Assembly: GCA_003248075.1 (NCBI GenBank)
Contig: QJYK01000299.1
Span: forward strand, 1 to 55,737
Origin: Gemmatimonadota bacterium
GTDB taxonomy: Bacteria > Gemmatimonadota > Gemmatimonadetes > Longimicrobiales > Gaopeijiaceae
DNA: 55,737 bases
Direction of reading: 5' to 3'
The first letter of the stretch is position 1. Every line of letters starts with the position of its first letter. Positions 30,215 to 41,657 of this stretch are shown here, in pieces. The notes beneath the pieces were generated by a model. The model made no database searches, was not told where the DNA came from, and saw only the letters and a list, made by a program, of their open reading frames with translations. The position numbers were made by a program, and so were the translations under genes.

Positions 30215-30264
30215 CCCGAGATGACGACCCTTCCGGCGTGCCTGCCACGCTCCAAGGAGACGGC

Positions 30265-31308
30265 ATGACCATGTTCACCAAGCTACTCAGCGTCGCCCTC
30301 CTGACGGTCCACGGCGGAGGCGGTACGGCGCCGGGCGCCGCGCCGCTGCGGGTGGTGGCCACGCTCCCGGTGTACGCGGAGCTCACCCGCGAGATCGGGG
30401 GAGCCGAGGTCGAGGTGTCGAGCATCGCCAACCCCAACGAGGATGCACACTTCGTAAGGCCCAAGCCGAGCTTCGCCCTGGACCTCCGCCGGGCGGACGT
30501 CTTCGTCACCACGGGGCTCGACCTCGAGCTCTGGGTGCCCACGCTGCTGGACCGAGCAGGGAACACCCAGGTCATCGAGGGTGGTCGGGGTTACATCACG
30601 GCCTACACCGGGATCAAGCTCCTCGACATCCCGGTCTCGGCGGACCGATCGGCGGGTGACGTACACATATACGGCAACCCGCACCTCACGACGGACCCGC
30701 TGCGGACTCTCCATGTCGCGCGAAACATCACCACCGGCCTGAAGCGGGTCGCGCCGGAACGGGCCGCCGCGTTCGACGCCGGGCTGGCGCGGTTCACCGA
30801 CCGCATCCACCGGAAGCTCTTCGGCGACCGGCTGGTCGATCTGCTAGGCGGACCGACATTGGAGCAGCTGGCGCTGAACGGGACACTGTTCCAGTTCCTG
30901 GACCAGCAGCAGTACGAGGACCACCCGCTCACGGCTCAGCTCGGCGGCTGGCTCCAGCAGGCGGCTCCGTTTCGGGGGAAGGCGATCATCTGCTATCACA
31001 AGAACTGGGCGTACTTCGAGGACCGCTTCCAGGTCCACTGCGTGGACTACGTCGAGGCGAAGCCCGGGATACCACCGACGCCCGGGCATGTGGCCCAACT
31101 CATAAAACGGATGCAAGATGAGCACATCAACGTGCTCTTCGCGGCTTCGTATTTCGACAAGAACAAGGTCGAGACGGTGGCCAACCGCGGCAGGGCGAAG
31201 CTCGTCCAGGTTCCCCTGTCGCCCGGTGCGCGGGCGGGTGTCAACGACTACTTCCAACTCGTCGACACCTGGGTGACCGAGCTGGCGGGTGCCTTCACCG
31301 GACGCTGA
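30265..31308 (+). CDS. Metal ABC transporter substrate-binding protein (ZnuA/TroA-like)
   Basis: A 347-aa cluster A-I binding protein with a signal peptide near residues 5-25 and no lipobox. Metal ligand candidates lie in NEDAHFVRPKPS (first His), HIYGNPHLTTDP (second), CYHKNWAYF (third) and AASYFDKNKV near the end; the long helix linking the two lobes is present. AGGAG precedes the ATG. It follows the porin by 50 bases and precedes the permease by 22. The family takes up zinc or manganese; His-rich neighbours make zinc more likely. Confidence 0.9.
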   Translation: MTMFTKLLSVALLTVHGGGGTAPGAAPLRVVATLPVYAELTREIGGAEVEVSSIANPNEDAHFVRPKPSFALDLRRADVFVTTGLDLELWVPTLLDRAGNTQVIEGGRGYITAYTGIKLLDIPVSADRSAGDVHIYGNPHLTTDPLRTLHVARNITTGLKRVAPERAAAFDAGLARFTDRIHRKLFGDRLVDLLGGPTLEQLALNGTLFQFLDQQQYEDHPLTAQLGGWLQQAAPFRGKAIICYHKNWAYFEDRFQVHCVDYVEAKPGIPPTPGHVAQLIKRMQDEHINVLFAASYFDKNKVETVANRGRAKLVQVPLSPGARAGVNDYFQLVDTWVTELAGAFTGR

Positions 31309-31330
31309 CCTCAGGAAAAGGGGCTGTACG

Positions 31331-32185
31331 ATGCTCGATCTCATGATCCCGCCGGTGGTGGCGGCCCTCGTCATCCTCTCGATCCACGCCTACCTCGGGC
31401 TCCACGTCATCGCCCGTGAGGTCATCTTCGTGGACCTCGCCTTCGCGCAGATCGCCGCATTGGGCACGACGATCGCGCTGCTGATGGGGATCGAGCTCGG
31501 AACCACCACCTCCCTGGCGTTCGCCCTCGGGGCGACGCTGATCGGCGCTCTGATCTTCAGCTTCACGCGTATGGAGCATTCAGCGGTTCCTCAAGAAGCC
31601 ATCATCGGCATCGCCTACGTCATGGCCTCGGCCGCCGTGATCCTCCTGGCCGGCATGACCGCCGAAGGCGCCGAGCATATCAAGGAGACCCTCACCGGGA
31701 CGCTGATCTGGGTCGGGTGGCCGGCAATCGCCAAAATGGCCGTGGTGTACGCGCTGGTCGGCGCATTCCACTTCATCCTCCGACGATACTTCCTGGCGGT
31801 GTCCTTCCACCCCGAGAAGGCGGAGAAAGTGCGCCTGTGGGATTTCCTTTTCTACGTCTCGTTCGGGATCGTGATCTCGTTCTCGGTGGAGATCGCCGGC
31901 GTCCTCATGGTCTTCAGCTCGCTCGTGGTCCCCGCCGTGGTCGCGTTCTTCTTCACCGACCGCTTCGGCAGCGCCATACTCATCGCCTGGGGCTCGGGCG
32001 CAGTCGCCATCGTCGCCGGGATCGGCGCTTCGTTCTACTGGGACCTCGCGACCGGACCGCTCCTGGTCTGCGCCTTCGGTGCCGTCCTTGTGGTCGCCGT
32101 GCTGCTCAGGCCGTCCCTGGGCGTCCACCCGGACGCGCGCATCCGGGTCAAAGCGCTGGCGGACGAGCCGGCGGGCGCGGACTGA
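31331..32185 (+). CDS. Metal ABC transporter permease (ZnuB-like, ABC-3 family)
   Basis: A 284-aa protein with about 8-9 membrane helices, matching the ABC-3 permease family (opening LGLHVIAREVIFVDLAFAQIAALGT; central EAIIGIAYVMASAAVIL; LTGTLIWVGW). Acidic helix ends and the C-terminal soluble tail follow the ZnuB layout. ATG 31331 is chosen because the family starts there; an upstream Met at 31289 would add only polar residues overlapping the previous stop. No ATPase gene follows: the next gene on this strand is more than 1 kb away and unrelated. It must share an ATPase encoded elsewhere. Confidence 0.92.
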   Translation: MLDLMIPPVVAALVILSIHAYLGLHVIAREVIFVDLAFAQIAALGTTIALLMGIELGTTTSLAFALGATLIGALIFSFTRMEHSAVPQEAIIGIAYVMASAAVILLAGMTAEGAEHIKETLTGTLIWVGWPAIAKMAVVYALVGAFHFILRRYFLAVSFHPEKAEKVRLWDFLFYVSFGIVISFSVEIAGVLMVFSSLVVPAVVAFFFTDRFGSAILIAWGSGAVAIVAGIGASFYWDLATGPLLVCAFGAVLVVAVLLRPSLGVHPDARIRVKALADEPAGAD

Positions 32186-34298: not shown

Positions 34299-36177
34299 TC
34301 AGTGCGCGGGGATCAGCGAAACGACGCGGCGGCTTCCCGGCTCGAGATCACCGACGGGGACCCTCACGCCCCACGGGGTCCCGACGTAGGGCACCGGCTC
34401 GCCGTCGACCAGAGGCCCCAGGGCCTCGGCACCCTTGGGGAGCACGAGGTCGACCCACACCCCGGTCAGCGAGCCGCCCACAGAGGCCTGGACGACGACC
34501 TCGAAGGCGAGGGCGTCGGGGTCGTCGGGCACCGCGGCCGGCCCCCCGGGCTCGGCGGCGACCACCGACACGGACAGCACGGACCGTTCCCGCCACCAGC
34601 GGGCGATGTCACCGGCTGTCGCGACCCACCAGTCACCTTCGGTCGCGGCGGTCTCGATCACGGTCCGGATCGCTGAAAGCCGGGTGTCGACAGAGCCGAT
34701 GATCTGTGTGTGGGAGGCCACCACGGCCAGGCCACCCATCGAGCGCACCTTTCGCAGACCGTTCAGGTACGCGGTCTCCAGCCGCTCGGCCCGCATGGCG
34801 CCTTCCTGCACGAAGACATTGTAGTCGTCCTTGATCAGCCTCGGCAGCACCGCCATTCGTCGCTCGCCGATCGCGTGGATCTCCGGGCTCGCCGAGCGCG
34901 CCTCGTTCACGGCCAGCAGATAGGTACCGCCGGCCTCGGACCACGCACGCAGTGTGTTCGCATCGAAGGCCTCCTCCGGGGGTCGAAGCCCATCAGGAGG
35001 TATTCCCGTCCAATTCTTGATCTCGCTCCAACCCCGACGCAGGCGCACGGCCTGGTCTCGGTGGGTGAGGCCGGCCACCCGTTGATGGTCCGACGTCTGA
35101 CTTCCGACCTCGCCGGCGGACCTGAGGGCTTGGGCCAGCCCTACATCGTCGAGCACCATCTGGGAGACCGGGTAGAACGAGCCGCGCACGCCCTGTTCGC
35201 GGAGCAGATCCGCCATCGCCCTTGCGTTCTCGTACGCGGCCTCCACGTCCTCCGCGATCACCAGGGCGGCTCGGTGACCTCGCTTGGCCCGCGGCCCATC
35301 GAATCCCATTCACCACGAGGCGCTCCAGGTACGCGCTGTCCGCCGGAGTGGCGAACTGACCCAGGCGAAAACCGAACCAGGTGGAGGTTCCGCCGCCCGA
35401 CGTTCGCGCGGCGAGGGCTGCCACATCGGCGCCGCCCCCGCTTTCGTCGGGCTGCGGGTTCAGGGCCCAGTCGGACCAGTAGACGCGCGCTCCGGCGAGC
35501 GTCAGCGCCAGCGACGGCTCAGGCACCAATTCGATGCGCGTTCCAGGATCGAGACCGGGAGACAGGGGCGTTCCCGCCGGCACCACCATGAACAGGGCCT
35601 CGCGCACCGGCAGCTCGCGCACGTCGGGCGCCCCCGTCAGCTCGGCCACGGTGCCCCATCCCCTCCACGCGCAGCGCTCGTCCCGAGCCCCGACCGCCCA
35701 GTTGCTCACCAGGCTGCCGCCCCGCGACACATGGGCGTGCAACGCCCGCACTTCCTCGGCTGACAGACACGGGGCGTCCGGAACCACCAGAACTTCGTCC
35801 GGGGAGACCTGATCGAGCTCCAACGAGTTGGTGGCGACCCGGACCGTGCCGCCAGCGGCGGCGATCAGCTGACGCCAGCGTTCGAGCGAGACCCGGTAAT
35901 AGTCCCGGTCGGGGTAGAACGCCCGATTGCGCAGCGAGCGAAGCAGCACGGCGTCGAACCGCACGGGCTCATGGCCGGCCGAAAGCGCGGGCTCCGGCAA
36001 GGGAAGGGGCCCCGCATCGGCGACCAGGACGGGCGCGAGCTGTCGGACGTCGAGGTTCTCCCACAGGAGCACGGCCGCGGAGACCACGCCTCCCGCGAGT
36101 AGCCCGAGGACGAGGATCCCTGCCAGCCAGTGCGTCGCCGCCCGGGCTCGGGGGACCGGATCACGCCTCGGTCGCAT
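34299..36177 (-). pseudogene. Polysaccharide-deacetylase-like membrane protein with a frameshift
   Basis: One protein spread over two frames. From ATG 36177 the first part has a basic N-terminus, a membrane helix (about 17-38) and a beta/alpha domain (like a glutamine-amidotransferase-type fold) down to GIRWAAGQ near 35285. It then continues 97 codons in a meaningless Arg/Gly-rich frame to 34993. The next frame, open from 35309, supplies a NodB-like domain (RAALVIAEDVEAA, RPPEEAFD, GGLAVVASHTQI) to the stop at 34299, so one base was lost or gained near 35280-35300. Metal motifs of NodB are incomplete: no clear His-His pair. It may be a mutation, a sequencing error, or two coupled genes. It overlaps the small membrane protein by 17 bases and is PgaB-like in context. 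Confidence 0.7.
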
Positions 36178-36395: not shown

Positions 36396-37712
36396 CTAGG
36401 TGGTCGCGACCCGTCGGAGCTTCTCCCATCCCATGCCGAGATTGAAGAACTCCTCCAGGGCCGCGAACGTCTTCGCGACGTCCAGGAAAAGGATGAAGAA
36501 GAAGCGGTAGATCACCGCGAACGGAACCAACCCCAGCGACTCCTCCTCCATGGATACCGTCACGAAGGCCGCGACCAGATCGAGCAGCGTGAGCAGGATC
36601 CACCAGTACAGCAGGAGCTCGCCCGCACCGAACAACAGCGCGACGATGGCGAAGAAGAGGTGGGCGTACACGTTCATGATCGGCCAGAGGACGGCCTCGA
36701 AGCCCATCTCGAAAATGGACAGCCAGAGAGGGAAGTCCGGGAACGGCCTCAGGAACAGACCCTTGCGCTTCTTGAGGGACTGGAGGATGCCACGGGTCCA
36801 GCGGTACCTCTGCTGGACCAGGTCCAGCCACCGCTCCGGCGCCTCCGTCCAGGCGATAGCGGTGTCCTCGTACACGATCTTCCACCCCGCCGCCACCATC
36901 TTCAGCGTGAGGTCCGCATCCTCGGCGAAGGTGTCCGTGTCGTAACCGCCGACTTCCTCGAGGGCCTCTCGCCGGAACAGGCCCACCGGTCCCGGGACGA
37001 TGTTCACGGCCGCGATGAACCCCTGGGCACGCCTAGGCATGTTGAGCCCCTCGATGTACTCGAGGGCCTGAAGGCTCGTGATGAGCTTTCCGCGGTTGGC
37101 CACCTTCACGTTGCCCGCGACCGCACCGACCGACTCGTCCTCCATGAGGCGGACGGCGCGGCGGAGCGTCTGCGGCTCGAGGTGGGAGTCCGCGTCCATG
37201 CAGAACACGAAGGGGTAGCGCCCCATCGCGATCCCGGTGTTGAGCGCGGTCGCCTTCCCGCCGTTCCGCTTCGTGAAGACCCTGAAGTCCACCGTTCCAT
37301 GGGTGCCCTCCCACACGGACGCACGCTCCAGCGTGTCGTCCGTGGAGCCGTCGTCGATCACGACGACCTCGTACTGCGGGTAGTCCAGGCCCACCAGGCT
37401 GGCGAGCGCCCCGTCGATCACCTGGCCCTCGTTGTAGGCCGGCACGATGATCGTGATGGGTGGCAGGTCCACGTGGTCCTGTGGCTTGAGCGCGTTCCGC
37501 TCTGCATGCTCCAGGTACGCGAACCACAACAGAGAGAAGTACCTGACGAACAAGATCATCAGGAAGATGAGCAGGCTCACCAGGACGATGCGCAGAAGGA
37601 GCAGCTGCGTGGCCGGTGGCGCACCGACCGCCCACAGAATGAACGTGATCGTGGCGACGACGAGGAGCTCCACGAGGAGCAAGGACGCGAGGACGCGTGT
37701 GCGTCGGCTCAT
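36396..37712 (-). CDS. Family 2 processive glycosyltransferase (PgaC/IcaA-like)
   Basis: A 438-aa membrane synthase. Two N-terminal membrane segments (about 9-30 and 35-60) are followed by a GT-A domain with IDDGS (D120-S123), DADS (173-176, metal-binding DxD), EDAD (264-267, catalytic base region) and Q301-RYRW (QxxRW acceptor motif), then four or so C-terminal helices. This is the layout of processive beta-glycan synthases such as PgaC/IcaA or HasA. The substrate is most likely UDP-N-acetylglucosamine by context. It starts in the stop of the TPR-barrel gene (ATGA overlap) and is followed by the small membrane protein 25 bases on. Confidence 0.92.
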   Translation of the reverse strand: MSRRTRVLASLLLVELLVVATITFILWAVGAPPATQLLLLRIVLVSLLIFLMILFVRYFSLLWFAYLEHAERNALKPQDHVDLPPITIIVPAYNEGQVIDGALASLVGLDYPQYEVVVIDDGSTDDTLERASVWEGTHGTVDFRVFTKRNGGKATALNTGIAMGRYPFVFCMDADSHLEPQTLRRAVRLMEDESVGAVAGNVKVANRGKLITSLQALEYIEGLNMPRRAQGFIAAVNIVPGPVGLFRREALEEVGGYDTDTFAEDADLTLKMVAAGWKIVYEDTAIAWTEAPERWLDLVQQRYRWTRGILQSLKKRKGLFLRPFPDFPLWLSIFEMGFEAVLWPIMNVYAHLFFAIVALLFGAGELLLYWWILLTLLDLVAAFVTVSMEEESLGLVPFAVIYRFFFILFLDVAKTFAALEEFFNLGMGWEKLRRVATT

Positions 37713-40000
37713 CGCTCGCTCGGCCGCAGGGGATCCACGACCGCGATCCCGAGACGCGCCCCCCAGGCCCGGTACCCGTCGAATCGGCCCTGATAGTAGA
37801 AGAGGTCCATGGAGGTGCGCACGCGATCTCCCCGACGGGTGAGGCCGCCCTCGGCCGACAGATGCGGCACGCGCTGCGACTGCTCGGCCGCGCGCTCACC
37901 GATCCATGCCAGCGCGGGCCCTACCCTCCCCCGCACTTCCCATCCTGGCGCCACGGACCGGTCCATCTGGGCGTAGGCGCCCACCGCGAAGACCGCCTCG
38001 GGGTCCCAGAAGAGCGGACGTCCGTTCGACACGGGCGCAGCGTCCGTGTACGACAGCGCCCGGCCGTTGACACCGAGGGTCACGTCGTCGGTCACGGCGC
38101 GCCCCAGGCTGACCCCGCCCTCGAAGCGGAACGCCGACGAGGAGGGCCACAGCGCGGGATCGGACCCGGCGAGACGGGCCCCGTCGGCCGCCAGGGACAA
38201 GCTCCAGCGGCTTCCGAGCTGGCGTGCCGCCGTGAGCATGAGGCGGTCCTGGCGAACCGGCAGGAGGAGGCTCGACAGCGTTACGGTCAGGGGATACGCT
38301 GGCCCGTGGTCGTACGCCAGGTCCGTTCGGAAACCCAGGAGGTTCGACCACCTCAGAGTCGCTCCCAGGGTGGCGTCCGTACCGGTGGGACGAACCCTCT
38401 CCATGCCCAGGCGCAGGCCCGTACGCAGGGTTCCCCACCGCCACCAGCGCGCCAGCTCCACTTCGGCGAACAAGCCTCGCTCCGAGCCGGACGCCCCGTC
38501 GATGCCGTTGCCGCGGACGACGCGGGATCCTGCTTTCCCTCCATAGACCCACGCGCCAGTGACCGCGACGGATTCCATCCCCAGGTCCAGGCGGATGAAC
38601 TCGTCGCTGTCGGAGAACGCATACGCGTCCGTGCCGAGTCGGGGACGCTCGACTTCGTCGATCTGGTGATCGACGTCCGTGCCGAGCGCCTCGAGTCCCT
38701 TGAGCGCCTCCGGATTCTCAGGATCCTCGGCGAGGGCCTGCGCGTAGGCATCGGCGGAGAGCACGCGCAGCCCCTCCCAACGATACAAGTCCCCTAGCAA
38801 CGCCCGAGCCTGTGCGTCGAGCGTGGGATCGAGACGCGCGGAAGGTCCCTGCCCCGGGGGGGCCAAGAGCCCTTCCAACCGGGCCATCGCCTCGGCGTTC
38901 CGGCCGGTCCACGCTTCCAGTTGGGCGATCCGGAACGTCAATGCGGGGTCAGCGCCACGGAGGGCCTCGAGCTCCACCAGGGCCTGCCGCGCGCCTTCGA
39001 GGTCCTCCACCCGATACTGGAGCACGTCCGCATACGTGCGGAGCAGGGCGGTGTCGCCCGGCTGCTCCGCTACAGCGGCCCGATATCCCTCCGCGGCCCT
39101 CGGGACGTCGCCCGCCGCGAGGGCGAGCGCCGCCTCCTCCGCGGTGGTGAGCGGGACGGGCCCGGGCGTGGACCGGGCATCTTCCCTCGGGGGCGTGAGC
39201 GCCGCACTCAGGCGCTCCCGAAGCTCGGACGCACCCGCGGCGCCGCTGCCCTCGCGGGGGAGCCCCGCCAGAACGCGTTCGGCTTCGGCCAGGTGTCCCG
39301 CCCAGAAGAGAACCTGCGCCAACTCGAGCCGGGCAGCGGCGTCCTCGGGGTCGGCAGCGACGATGTCCCGGAGGATCTCGGCCGCCTCCTCGTAACGCTC
39401 GGCCCAAGCGAGGGCCCTCGCCGCTTCGCGCGCGAGCTCCAGGTCGTCGGGATCCGCCCCCATCAGCACGCCGTACTGGCGGAGCGCTTCATCGATCCGG
39501 CCCTGGTCCCGGAGCGCGCGGGCGTAGAGCAGCCGCAGCTCGGGCTCGTCTCGCTGCGTGAGCAGGGCCCGGTACGCCGCCGTGGCTTCTTCGTGGCCTC
39601 CGGCGCGGTCCAGGGTGATCGCCTGCTCCCTGCGTACGGACCGATCCGACGGGTGTTGCTGCAGATAGGACTCGAAGAGGGGAAGGGCCGCCTGGTACCG
39701 AGCGCTCTCGAGGAGGGGCATGACCTCGCTCCAGAAGCGCTCGGCGGGGCCGATCGGAACGGGTCCCGGCTCCATACGTGGCACGACGGCGATCCGTCGC
39801 AACTCCAGGGTCGGGGTGAAGGACGGTGCCGTCGTGGGGAAGTTGACCCCCGACTCACGGAGGCCCGTGTGCAGCACGTAGCGGCGCGGCAGCACGACCA
39901 GAACGAGCACGAGGGTCAGGCCTCCGAGGAGACCTGCCATCGTCATGAAGCCAACTGCGTAGCGCGTCGAGTTCGCGCGTGCGTCAGACCGCCTTCGCAC
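37709..40000 (-). CDS. TPR plus beta-barrel polysaccharide export protein (PgaA/BcsC-like)
   Basis: A 763-aa protein. A hydrophobic segment (about 15-38) acts as signal or anchor. Residues about 75-440 are tetratricopeptide repeats (YQAALPLFESYLQQ, ATAAYRALLTQR, RYEEAAEILRDIV, HLAEAERVLAGLP), and from about 450 to the end there is a beta-barrel with alternating polar and aromatic strands finishing in the soluble tail WGARLGIAVVDPLRPSER. Periplasmic TPR scaffold plus outer-membrane barrel is the known layout of PgaA and BcsC, which carry nascent glycan outward. The GTG at 40000 overlaps the upstream stop by 17 bases. The barrel is not in a family I recall exactly. Confidence 0.78.
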   Translation of the reverse strand: MRRRSDARANSTRYAVGFMTMAGLLGGLTLVLVLVVLPRRYVLHTGLRESGVNFPTTAPSFTPTLELRRIAVVPRMEPGPVPIGPAERFWSEVMPLLESARYQAALPLFESYLQQHPSDRSVRREQAITLDRAGGHEEATAAYRALLTQRDEPELRLLYARALRDQGRIDEALRQYGVLMGADPDDLELAREAARALAWAERYEEAAEILRDIVAADPEDAAARLELAQVLFWAGHLAEAERVLAGLPREGSGAAGASELRERLSAALTPPREDARSTPGPVPLTTAEEAALALAAGDVPRAAEGYRAAVAEQPGDTALLRTYADVLQYRVEDLEGARQALVELEALRGADPALTFRIAQLEAWTGRNAEAMARLEGLLAPPGQGPSARLDPTLDAQARALLGDLYRWEGLRVLSADAYAQALAEDPENPEALKGLEALGTDVDHQIDEVERPRLGTDAYAFSDSDEFIRLDLGMESVAVTGAWVYGGKAGSRVVRGNGIDGASGSERGLFAEVELARWWRWGTLRTGLRLGMERVRPTGTDATLGATLRWSNLLGFRTDLAYDHGPAYPLTVTLSSLLLPVRQDRLMLTAARQLGSRWSLSLAADGARLAGSDPALWPSSSAFRFEGGVSLGRAVTDDVTLGVNGRALSYTDAAPVSNGRPLFWDPEAVFAVGAYAQMDRSVAPGWEVRGRVGPALAWIGERAAEQSQRVPHLSAEGGLTRRGDRVRTSMDLFYYQGRFDGYRAWGARLGIAVVDPLRPSER

Positions 40001-41657
40001 CGCCGCCCCCCGGGGCCCTCGCCGACTCCGCGACCGTCACGCCGACGTCCACGGACGCGAGCCGGAGGATCCCCAGCCGGTCCCCGGGGTGCGAATACAC
40101 CTCGGTCAGAAGGCCGGCTTCCGCGGATCCGGCTGCCGCGAGGCGACCGCGAACCCGCTCGGCGAAGGCTCGTGCAGCCTCTCTCCGAGCCCCCTGGAGC
40201 AGGACGAGGAAACCGGTCTGACCCGGCACGACCAGGTCTCCCTGGTCGGAGCGGATCTCGTCGGCGAGGTACCGACTGAGCTCGCGGTCGCTCCCACCTG
40301 GCCGTGTCACGCGCAGCACCGTGAGAACGGAGTAGAACGGGTCTCCGAGCCGCTTCTCGACCTCGCCCCGGAACACCGAACGGTCCACCGAGCCCCCCAC
40401 GGGCCGCTGGGGCCGCCGCGACGCTTCTTCCGGGGTCGGTGCCGGCTTGCCGCCGCTCTCGGCCGCCTGCCTGATGCGCACGGCCAGCTCGCGAACGTCC
40501 ACTCCGGCGCTGAGGCAGTCGTCGGCCCCCGCTTCGAGGATGTCTACGCGATCCGTCGAGCGGATGGCATCGTCGAAGGCCGCGATGATGGGAGACCCGG
40601 TCAGCGGCCTCATCGCACGGCTGGCGCGGACGACCTCCGGAACCCGCTCGCGCGGGGCGTAGATCAACACGCACCCGAAGCCGGCTCCGCTCTGAAGCGC
40701 CGAAACGCCGTCGAGCGCCTCGCGCACGACGTCGGTGGTGAAGATCTTGCAAGCCCACTCCTCGAGGGGCTGCTGAGGCTCGTCGCCCAGGTCGACCAGA
40801 AGCAGCCTGCTCCCGTGGCCCATGCTCCGGTCTGCACGCCTCCGGGACAGGCCCACCTCGGGAGCGACGAGGCCTCGACCGGCCACGAGCTGGAGCGTGA
40901 CCTGCTCGGGACCCTCGCGCCCGTGGCGCGCATGCCGGAGGTCGACGTGGTAGACGCCGTCCGGACCGTGATCCAGCAGGAGAACTCCATCCGTCACCTG
41001 CGTGAGCCACTCTGCCGAAGCAGGAAGCTCGAGCCCGTCGATGGCCAGCGTCACGAAGACCGACGCCCGCTGGCGCCGTGCCCATTCCACGAAGGCCCGG
41101 CCGAGCAGGGTGCGCGCACCGCCCTGTATGAACAGTCCCCCCGGATCAACGACGATGCGATCGAGCCCCTTGGGCGCGAGGGCGTCCAGCTCCTCCAGGA
41201 CGTCCTCCGGCTCCGCGGAACGCAGCACACGGAGCTCGAAATCGTCACGGAACCCGAGGATCCGCAGTGCCCCGCTCTCGTAGGCCGGACGGAGCTCGAG
41301 GCCCCAGGCCGCCGCCACGTCCAGGATGTCCGATGCGACGGCGTTCGTGACCAGCAGTACGCGCTGGCCCACCGACACCCCCGCGGCGGCGAACTGCAGG
41401 CCGGCCACGAGCTTCGCCGGACCGGGCGGGCCCGCCAGCACATGGAACGAGCCCGGTCCGAGACCGTTGGTACGCTCGTCAAGCGGCGAAATGCCCCACC
41501 CAGGAGCGGCAACAGCCAAAGGAGTCGTGTCCGCTCCCTCGATTGAAGTCAACGCTTCTTTCACGGCTGCGTCCTGCCTGGCCCCGACCTCGGACCCGGA
41601 AGATTGAAAGTTATCGAAAGAAAGTGCGAAGGGTCTTGCCTCGACCCGTTGCGCCAC
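39984..41657 (-). CDS. BcsE-like regulator: degenerate KaiC/RecA-like, receiver-like and GGDEF-like domains
   Basis: 557 aa from GTG 41657 (GTG 41564 with AGGA 8 bases upstream is an alternative). Residues about 45-265 follow KaiC-type ATPases, but the Walker A reads AGPPGPAKLVA (75-85) and lacks the GKT, so ATP hydrolysis is unlikely; VVVD (about 168-171) is the Walker B strand. Residues about 283-398 resemble a receiver (LLLVD 285-289, AGADD 376-380), but the acceptor Asp is Tyr333. Residues about 425-535 resemble GGDEF with the signature replaced by PGQTGF (478-483). An R469..D474 segment lies where the c-di-GMP I-site is found, without exact RxxD. This order matches BcsE. First gene of the polysaccharide operon. 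Confidence 0.75.
   Translation of the reverse strand: MAQRVEARPFALSFDNFQSSGSEVGARQDAAVKEALTSIEGADTTPLAVAAPGWGISPLDERTNGLGPGSFHVLAGPPGPAKLVAGLQFAAAGVSVGQRVLLVTNAVASDILDVAAAWGLELRPAYESGALRILGFRDDFELRVLRSAEPEDVLEELDALAPKGLDRIVVDPGGLFIQGGARTLLGRAFVEWARRQRASVFVTLAIDGLELPASAEWLTQVTDGVLLLDHGPDGVYHVDLRHARHGREGPEQVTLQLVAGRGLVAPEVGLSRRRADRSMGHGSRLLLVDLGDEPQQPLEEWACKIFTTDVVREALDGVSALQSGAGFGCVLIYAPRERVPEVVRASRAMRPLTGSPIIAAFDDAIRSTDRVDILEAGADDCLSAGVDVRELAVRIRQAAESGGKPAPTPEEASRRPQRPVGGSVDRSVFRGEVEKRLGDPFYSVLTVLRVTRPGGSDRELSRYLADEIRSDQGDLVVPGQTGFLVLLQGARREAARAFAERVRGRLAAAGSAEAGLLTEVYSHPGDRLGILRLASVDVGVTVAESARAPGGGGAKAV

Follow-up and report, generated by a model that had tools for sequence, protein, structure and literature searches.

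A BcsE-like protein with three degenerate domains leads a PGA-type operon in Gemmatimonadota

The DNA analysed here (the window, 55,737 nucleotides of contig QJYK01000299.1 from a Gemmatimonadota bacterium) carries on its minus strand, at 39984–41657, an open reading frame of 557 residues. It encodes a distant homologue of BcsE, the protein by which Type II cellulose secretion is enhanced in E. coli. The gene leads an operon of the PGA type, as the earlier note had proposed, and we consider its product a probable BcsE-type regulator or assembly factor, likely cytosolic, of a PNAG-type synthase. Studies of BcsE have treated it as an aid to cellulose secretion in Proteobacteria; a phylum-wide association of a homologue with a PNAG-type operon would show one sensor design serving different polymers. 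Among the papers searched, the single one that names both BcsE and Gemmatimonadota deals with raw milk and antibiotic resistance and is apparently unrelated.

The gene and its operon

The BcsE-like ORF starts with GTG, is the first gene in a minus-strand run and overlaps the next gene of the operon by 17 bp. It is real and conserved, with its frame kept in close homologues of 44–54% identity at nine Gemmatimonadota loci (L014–L022) and with family members (E 1e-20 or better) in 41 of 395 Gemmatimonadota genomes, spread over 30 of 138 genera. The family was not seen in the 396 Acidobacteriota genomes searched, which gave KaiC-domain matches only. A scan for promoters and terminators returned nothing above chance.

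The second gene (37709–40000, minus strand) encodes a 763-residue protein with TPRs and a probable outer-membrane barrel, which resembles PgaA and BcsC; this assignment draws on Pfam TPR matches, on weak NCBIfam matches to BcsC and PgaA (the PgaA equivalog scores just 23 bits) and on its conserved place as the next gene. The third (36396–37712, minus strand) encodes a GT2 synthase of 438 residues resembling PgaC and IcaA, in which the QRYRW motif is present and for which the best NCBIfam match is PgaC_IcaA (TIGR03937) at 208 bits, under the cut-off of 422. The fourth (34299–36177, minus strand) joins an N-terminal part with sub-threshold likeness to DUF4350/GH42M to a polysaccharide deacetylase (PF01522). 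It is split in two frames, both matching one homologue, by a frameshift near 35.28 kb that is either an assembly error or genuine; in most complete relatives the gene is a single ORF of about 590–700 residues.

The order BcsE-like gene, TPR/barrel gene, PgaC-like GT2 gene and deacetylase gene recurs in most loci with sufficient flank, and this order together with the Pfam and NCBIfam matches supports the PGA-type assignment. A BcsE-like gene scores in 32 of the 34 genomes containing the operon's GT2 (Fisher p 1.5e-36, uncorrected for relatedness); of the two exceptions, one (G397) has a fragment beside the GT2 gene, and in the other (G237) the contig ends inside the exporter gene. In several genomes of family 7 the homologue adjoins GCS2-CBS and AstE-like genes and the operon is absent there. 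Relatives at loci L099, L101 and L102 adjoin GCS2-CBS and AstE/AspA-like genes, not a glycan operon.

The operon resembles that for PNAG in E. coli in combining a PgaC-like synthase, a TPR exporter and a deacetylase, and differs from it in having a BcsE-like leader and no recognisable PgaD-like gene. Environmental forms without a pgaD locus were also found in a survey of pga operons (PMC7112194). The BcsE-like leader would supply a regulator where PgaD is missing. Elsewhere in the window, at 30255–32185, lie genes that by eye resemble a metal ABC transporter substrate-binding protein and permease (ZnuA/ZnuB-like).

Domain architecture and predicted structures

The N-terminal domain, residues 55–261 (40875–41495, minus strand), is KaiC/RecA-like. 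PF06745 matches residues 55–174 (E 6.4e-7) and is the sole Pfam match in the ORF, and residues 55–260 compare with the KaiC CI domain by VIA with a Z of 18.7 and an rmsd of 2.7 over 192 residues. The likeness to KaiC lies in this N-terminal fold; the window protein differs from KaiC in having a single such domain, whose ATP site is degenerate, and in the REC-like and GGDEF-like parts that come after it. The Walker A segment, residues 76–84 (GPPGPAKLV; 41406–41432, minus strand), does not conform to the KaiC consensus GxxxxGK[ST], reading GPPGPAKL from G76 to L83, so that Lys 82 is retained while the preceding Gly and the following Ser/Thr are gone. In an unrooted tree of 31 family members the motif is degenerate in 18 and intact in 13, and the two groups are split by a branch with 100/100 support. 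We infer that Walker A was lost in the window's clade, because the KaiC family has it intact. At locus L017 a second KaiC-like copy fused to a receiver is encoded directly upstream of the BcsE-like gene (L017:1726–2949), and the phosphoacceptor Asp of that receiver is apparently normal.

The degenerate receiver domain spans residues 283 to 403 approximately (40449–40811, minus strand) and was delimited from the model and structure searches, as was the degenerate GGDEF-like domain, about residues 422–536 (40050–40394, minus strand), which is predicted with block pLDDT of 83–94. In the receiver, Tyr 333 (40659–40661, minus strand) stands at the phosphoacceptor position, which is His in close relatives, and Ala 384 occupies the position of the KP lysine; the domain is best explained as phosphorylation-incompetent. 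The GGDEF motif occurs in none of the aligned family members, and the C-terminal domain is best explained as diguanylate-cyclase-like and devoid of an active site. An active KaiC-type ATPase, or a clock-like regulator with a phosphorylated receiver, would accord with the Pfam KaiC match and with the intact Walker A of 13 of the 31 relatives, but in the window's clade Walker A has lost its Gly and Ser/Thr and the receiver no longer has the phosphoacceptor Asp or the KP lysine, which makes this reading very improbable. For the window member, a plain active KaiC was rejected on account of the degenerate ATP site.

The full-length model, built with 10 close rows, is modest (pLDDT 63, pTM 0.40) and weak around residues 364–386; residues 278–545 folded alone, with seven receiver rows added, reached a pLDDT of 83, with about 364–382 still low. 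When the full-length model was searched with Foldseek against 350,542 PDB chains, ranks 1–3 were taken by chains of E. coli BcsE (9fnn_E, 9fnn_U and 9fp0_E; 513–544 columns, E 1.3e-12 to 4.2e-12), which precede every KaiC chain; the identity of 9fnn_E and 9fp0 as BcsE was confirmed. The TM-scores to BcsE are low (0.24–0.28) because domain orientation is poorly predicted. With the 278–545 model, the GGDEF-like half compares with BcsE chain 6ybu_L by VIA with a Z of 12.1 and an rmsd of 3.3 over 115 residues, and entire BcsE tandems give Z of 11.5–12.1 over 207–231 residues, with rmsd of 6–12 that reflects free domain orientation. Taking VIA Z differences under 1 as ties, BcsE chains are best or tied-best for this C-terminal model, followed by receivers and cyclases with Z of 10–12; by Foldseek alone, PleD slightly outranks BcsE for the C-terminal half.

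Cyclases of the PleD/WspR type share the REC-GGDEF tandem fold, and the window protein differs from them in lacking the phosphoacceptor and the GGDEF motif and, by eye, in a short stretch from strand β1 to helix α2. PelD of the Pel polysaccharide system is likewise encoded in a glycan operon and has a degenerate GGDEF-like domain; the comparison with its structure 4dmz gives a VIA Z of 10.5 and an rmsd of 3.1 over 114 residues. It has no KaiC or REC part, and contains membrane and GAF domains instead.

The earlier note had read the frame as three degenerate domains in the order found in BcsE: a KaiC-type domain without GKT in its Walker A, a receiver-like domain with Tyr at the phosphoacceptor site and a GGDEF-like domain lacking the signature. 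Taken together, the Pfam match, the structure comparisons, the predicted models and the aligned residues confirm this reading. It had also called for a predicted structure to be compared with BcsE by Foldseek, which placed BcsE on top as described, and had named two outcomes that would speak against the reading. The first, a lack of REC or GGDEF folds in residues 283–535, did not arise, both folds being predicted; the second, intact motifs in homologues, was found in part, for Walker A and not for GGDEF.

Relationship to BcsE

Profiles were needed to establish the relationship, since BLASTP with the window protein as a single sequence gave no significant match to E. coli BcsE; a single-sequence search of the PDB returned mostly KaiC and receiver matches, with BcsE not among them. 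The BcsE profile comprised ten proteins from E. coli, other Enterobacterales, Photobacterium, Alteromonadales, Caballeronia and one further genome, one of them obtained by genome search and most others from plasmid records. By hhalign the 34-member family aligned collinearly with these over 435 columns (98.2%, E 5.4e-14), the window's close clade alone gave E 8e-11, the N-terminal, receiver and GGDEF-like domains taken separately gave 4e-7, 7e-5 and 3e-5, and reversed and column-shuffled BcsE controls gave 0.5–0.9, each E-value referring to one comparison. The Pfam model CBP_BcsE (PF10995) found its E. coli control and had no match in the window protein, in 15 relatives or in the genome. We therefore describe the protein as a homologue and not as a formal family member: the profile match is collinear, yet PF10995 is unmatched. 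The BcsE-like domain order given in the earlier note, and the fold, are supported by Foldseek and VIA, and the profile homology to BcsE is collinear.

The window protein shares with BcsE the order of NTPase-like, REC-like and GGDEF-like domains (from models and structure searches), a degenerate Walker A, an RxxD on the receiver and the GD of the GGDEF I-site, and its gene, too, leads a glycan-secretion operon. It differs in that the operon is PGA-type and not cellulose, that Arg 415 is replaced by Asp, that some relatives have an intact Walker A, and that no BcsF/BcsG-like gene was seen adjoining the window gene; the BcsQ model matches in the genome only below its cut-off. Relatives with an intact ATP site would help explain the origin of the BcsE N-terminal domain.

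The likeness would instead be convergent if a KaiC-REC protein and a decayed GGDEF domain had been joined apart from BcsE. KaiC, REC and GGDEF are common domains, KaiC-REC fusions occur in Acidobacteriota (L111, L114), the N-terminal domain is far closer in sequence to KaiC than to BcsE, the PleD ranking for the C-terminal half points the same way, and BcsE itself has been suggested to derive from fused smaller proteins (PMC7439463). Nevertheless, each domain matches BcsE separately and collinearly, the coincidences with BcsE extend to the RxxD of the receiver, to the GD pair and to the Arg that follows Asp 474 by 17 residues, and both genes lead or sit in glycan-synthase operons, and we regard an independent fusion as unlikely. 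Counting against the BcsE-type reading as a whole are the unmatched PF10995, the BLASTP result, the use of common domains, the Asp in place of the I-site Arg, the occurrence of the receiver Arg in L111 and L114 as well, the homologues outside the operon, the lack of a BcsQ above cut-off and the modest confidence of the full-length model.

I-site residues, ligand and proposed role

In E. coli BcsE a composite site formed by R306ATD and R415TGD holds a c-di-GMP dimer, with R415TGD needed for binding (PMC11470070), and changing the I-site to D415TGA makes c-di-GMP binding defective (PMC7439463). The receiver of the window protein carries R366-S-T-D369 (40551–40562, minus strand), an RxxD aligned to R306ATD309 of the BcsE REC I-site, and the GGDEF-like domain carries R469-S-D-Q-G-D474 (40236–40253, minus strand), in which D471, G473 and D474 align to R415, G417 and D418. 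The main I-site thus reads D471-Q-G-D474 where BcsE has R415TGD, and the earlier statement that an exact RxxD is not seen holds for the GGDEF I-site and fails for the receiver. In three alignment modes R366, T368, D369 and G377 pair with E. coli R306, T308, D309 and G317, and G473, D474, L487 and R491 pair with G417, D418, L431 and R435, R491 being the Arg 17 residues past D474.

Among the 31 members the RxxD is on the receiver in 26, on the GGDEF-like domain in three and on both in none, and position 471 is Asp or Glu in 21. R366 and D369 are nearly invariant within the window's clade, and G473 and D474 are invariant in a 16-sequence alignment. An Arg at the GGDEF I-site is found only in L004, L005 and L006, whose receivers are without RxxD, the reverse of the window's clade. 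Judged from these alignments, the window protein keeps the secondary, receiver site and has an acidic residue at the primary I-site, which resembles the published binding-dead mutant.

A purine dinucleotide such as c-di-GMP is the leading candidate ligand, with candidate contacts at R366 and D369 on the receiver and G473 and D474, perhaps also R469, on the GGDEF-like domain; the binding geometry would have to differ from that in E. coli, since D471 takes the place of R415. The genome encodes three proteins with GGDEF/GGEEF motifs and has one PilZ match, and c-di-GMP signalling is therefore likely present, but we put binding of c-di-GMP by the window member at somewhat less than an even chance. 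With the same architecture and descent, the protein could also have ceased to bind a dinucleotide and serve, without a ligand, as a scaffold for assembly of the synthase-exporter complex, its I-site reversed to an acidic patch. The prevalence of Asp or Glu at the R415 equivalent and the defect of D415TGA (PMC7439463) favour such a scaffold; a dead site, however, need not keep G473 and D474 invariant and R366 and D369 nearly so, and three relatives have RxxD at the GGDEF site, so we hold it to be rather unlikely.

On our preferred reading as a BcsE-type regulator or assembly factor, the protein would be cytosolic and act on the PgaC-like synthase, promoting its assembly or raising its activity as BcsE does for the BcsA complex, and would take this role where a PgaD-like gene is not recognised; the cytosolic location, synthase contact and activation are proposed by analogy. 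We also suggest, tentatively and with limited confidence, that BcsE-type proteins form a wider class of glycan-synthase regulators, serving PNAG in Gemmatimonadota, some with an intact ATP site, with the RxxD moved between domains and the ligand possibly changed. Because of the acidic I-site residue, a change of ligand can be tested directly.

With the position counted by its offset from the GA motif, an Arg equivalent to R366 was unseen in 15 other sequences, mostly receivers and a few of them doubtful as such. Two Acidobacteriota KaiC-REC proteins of 768–809 residues (L111 and L114) have this Arg, in receivers that carry RxxDR and an intact KPF motif, and the Arg is therefore neither specific to nor proof of dinucleotide binding. 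These two proteins are possible relatives of the ancestor.
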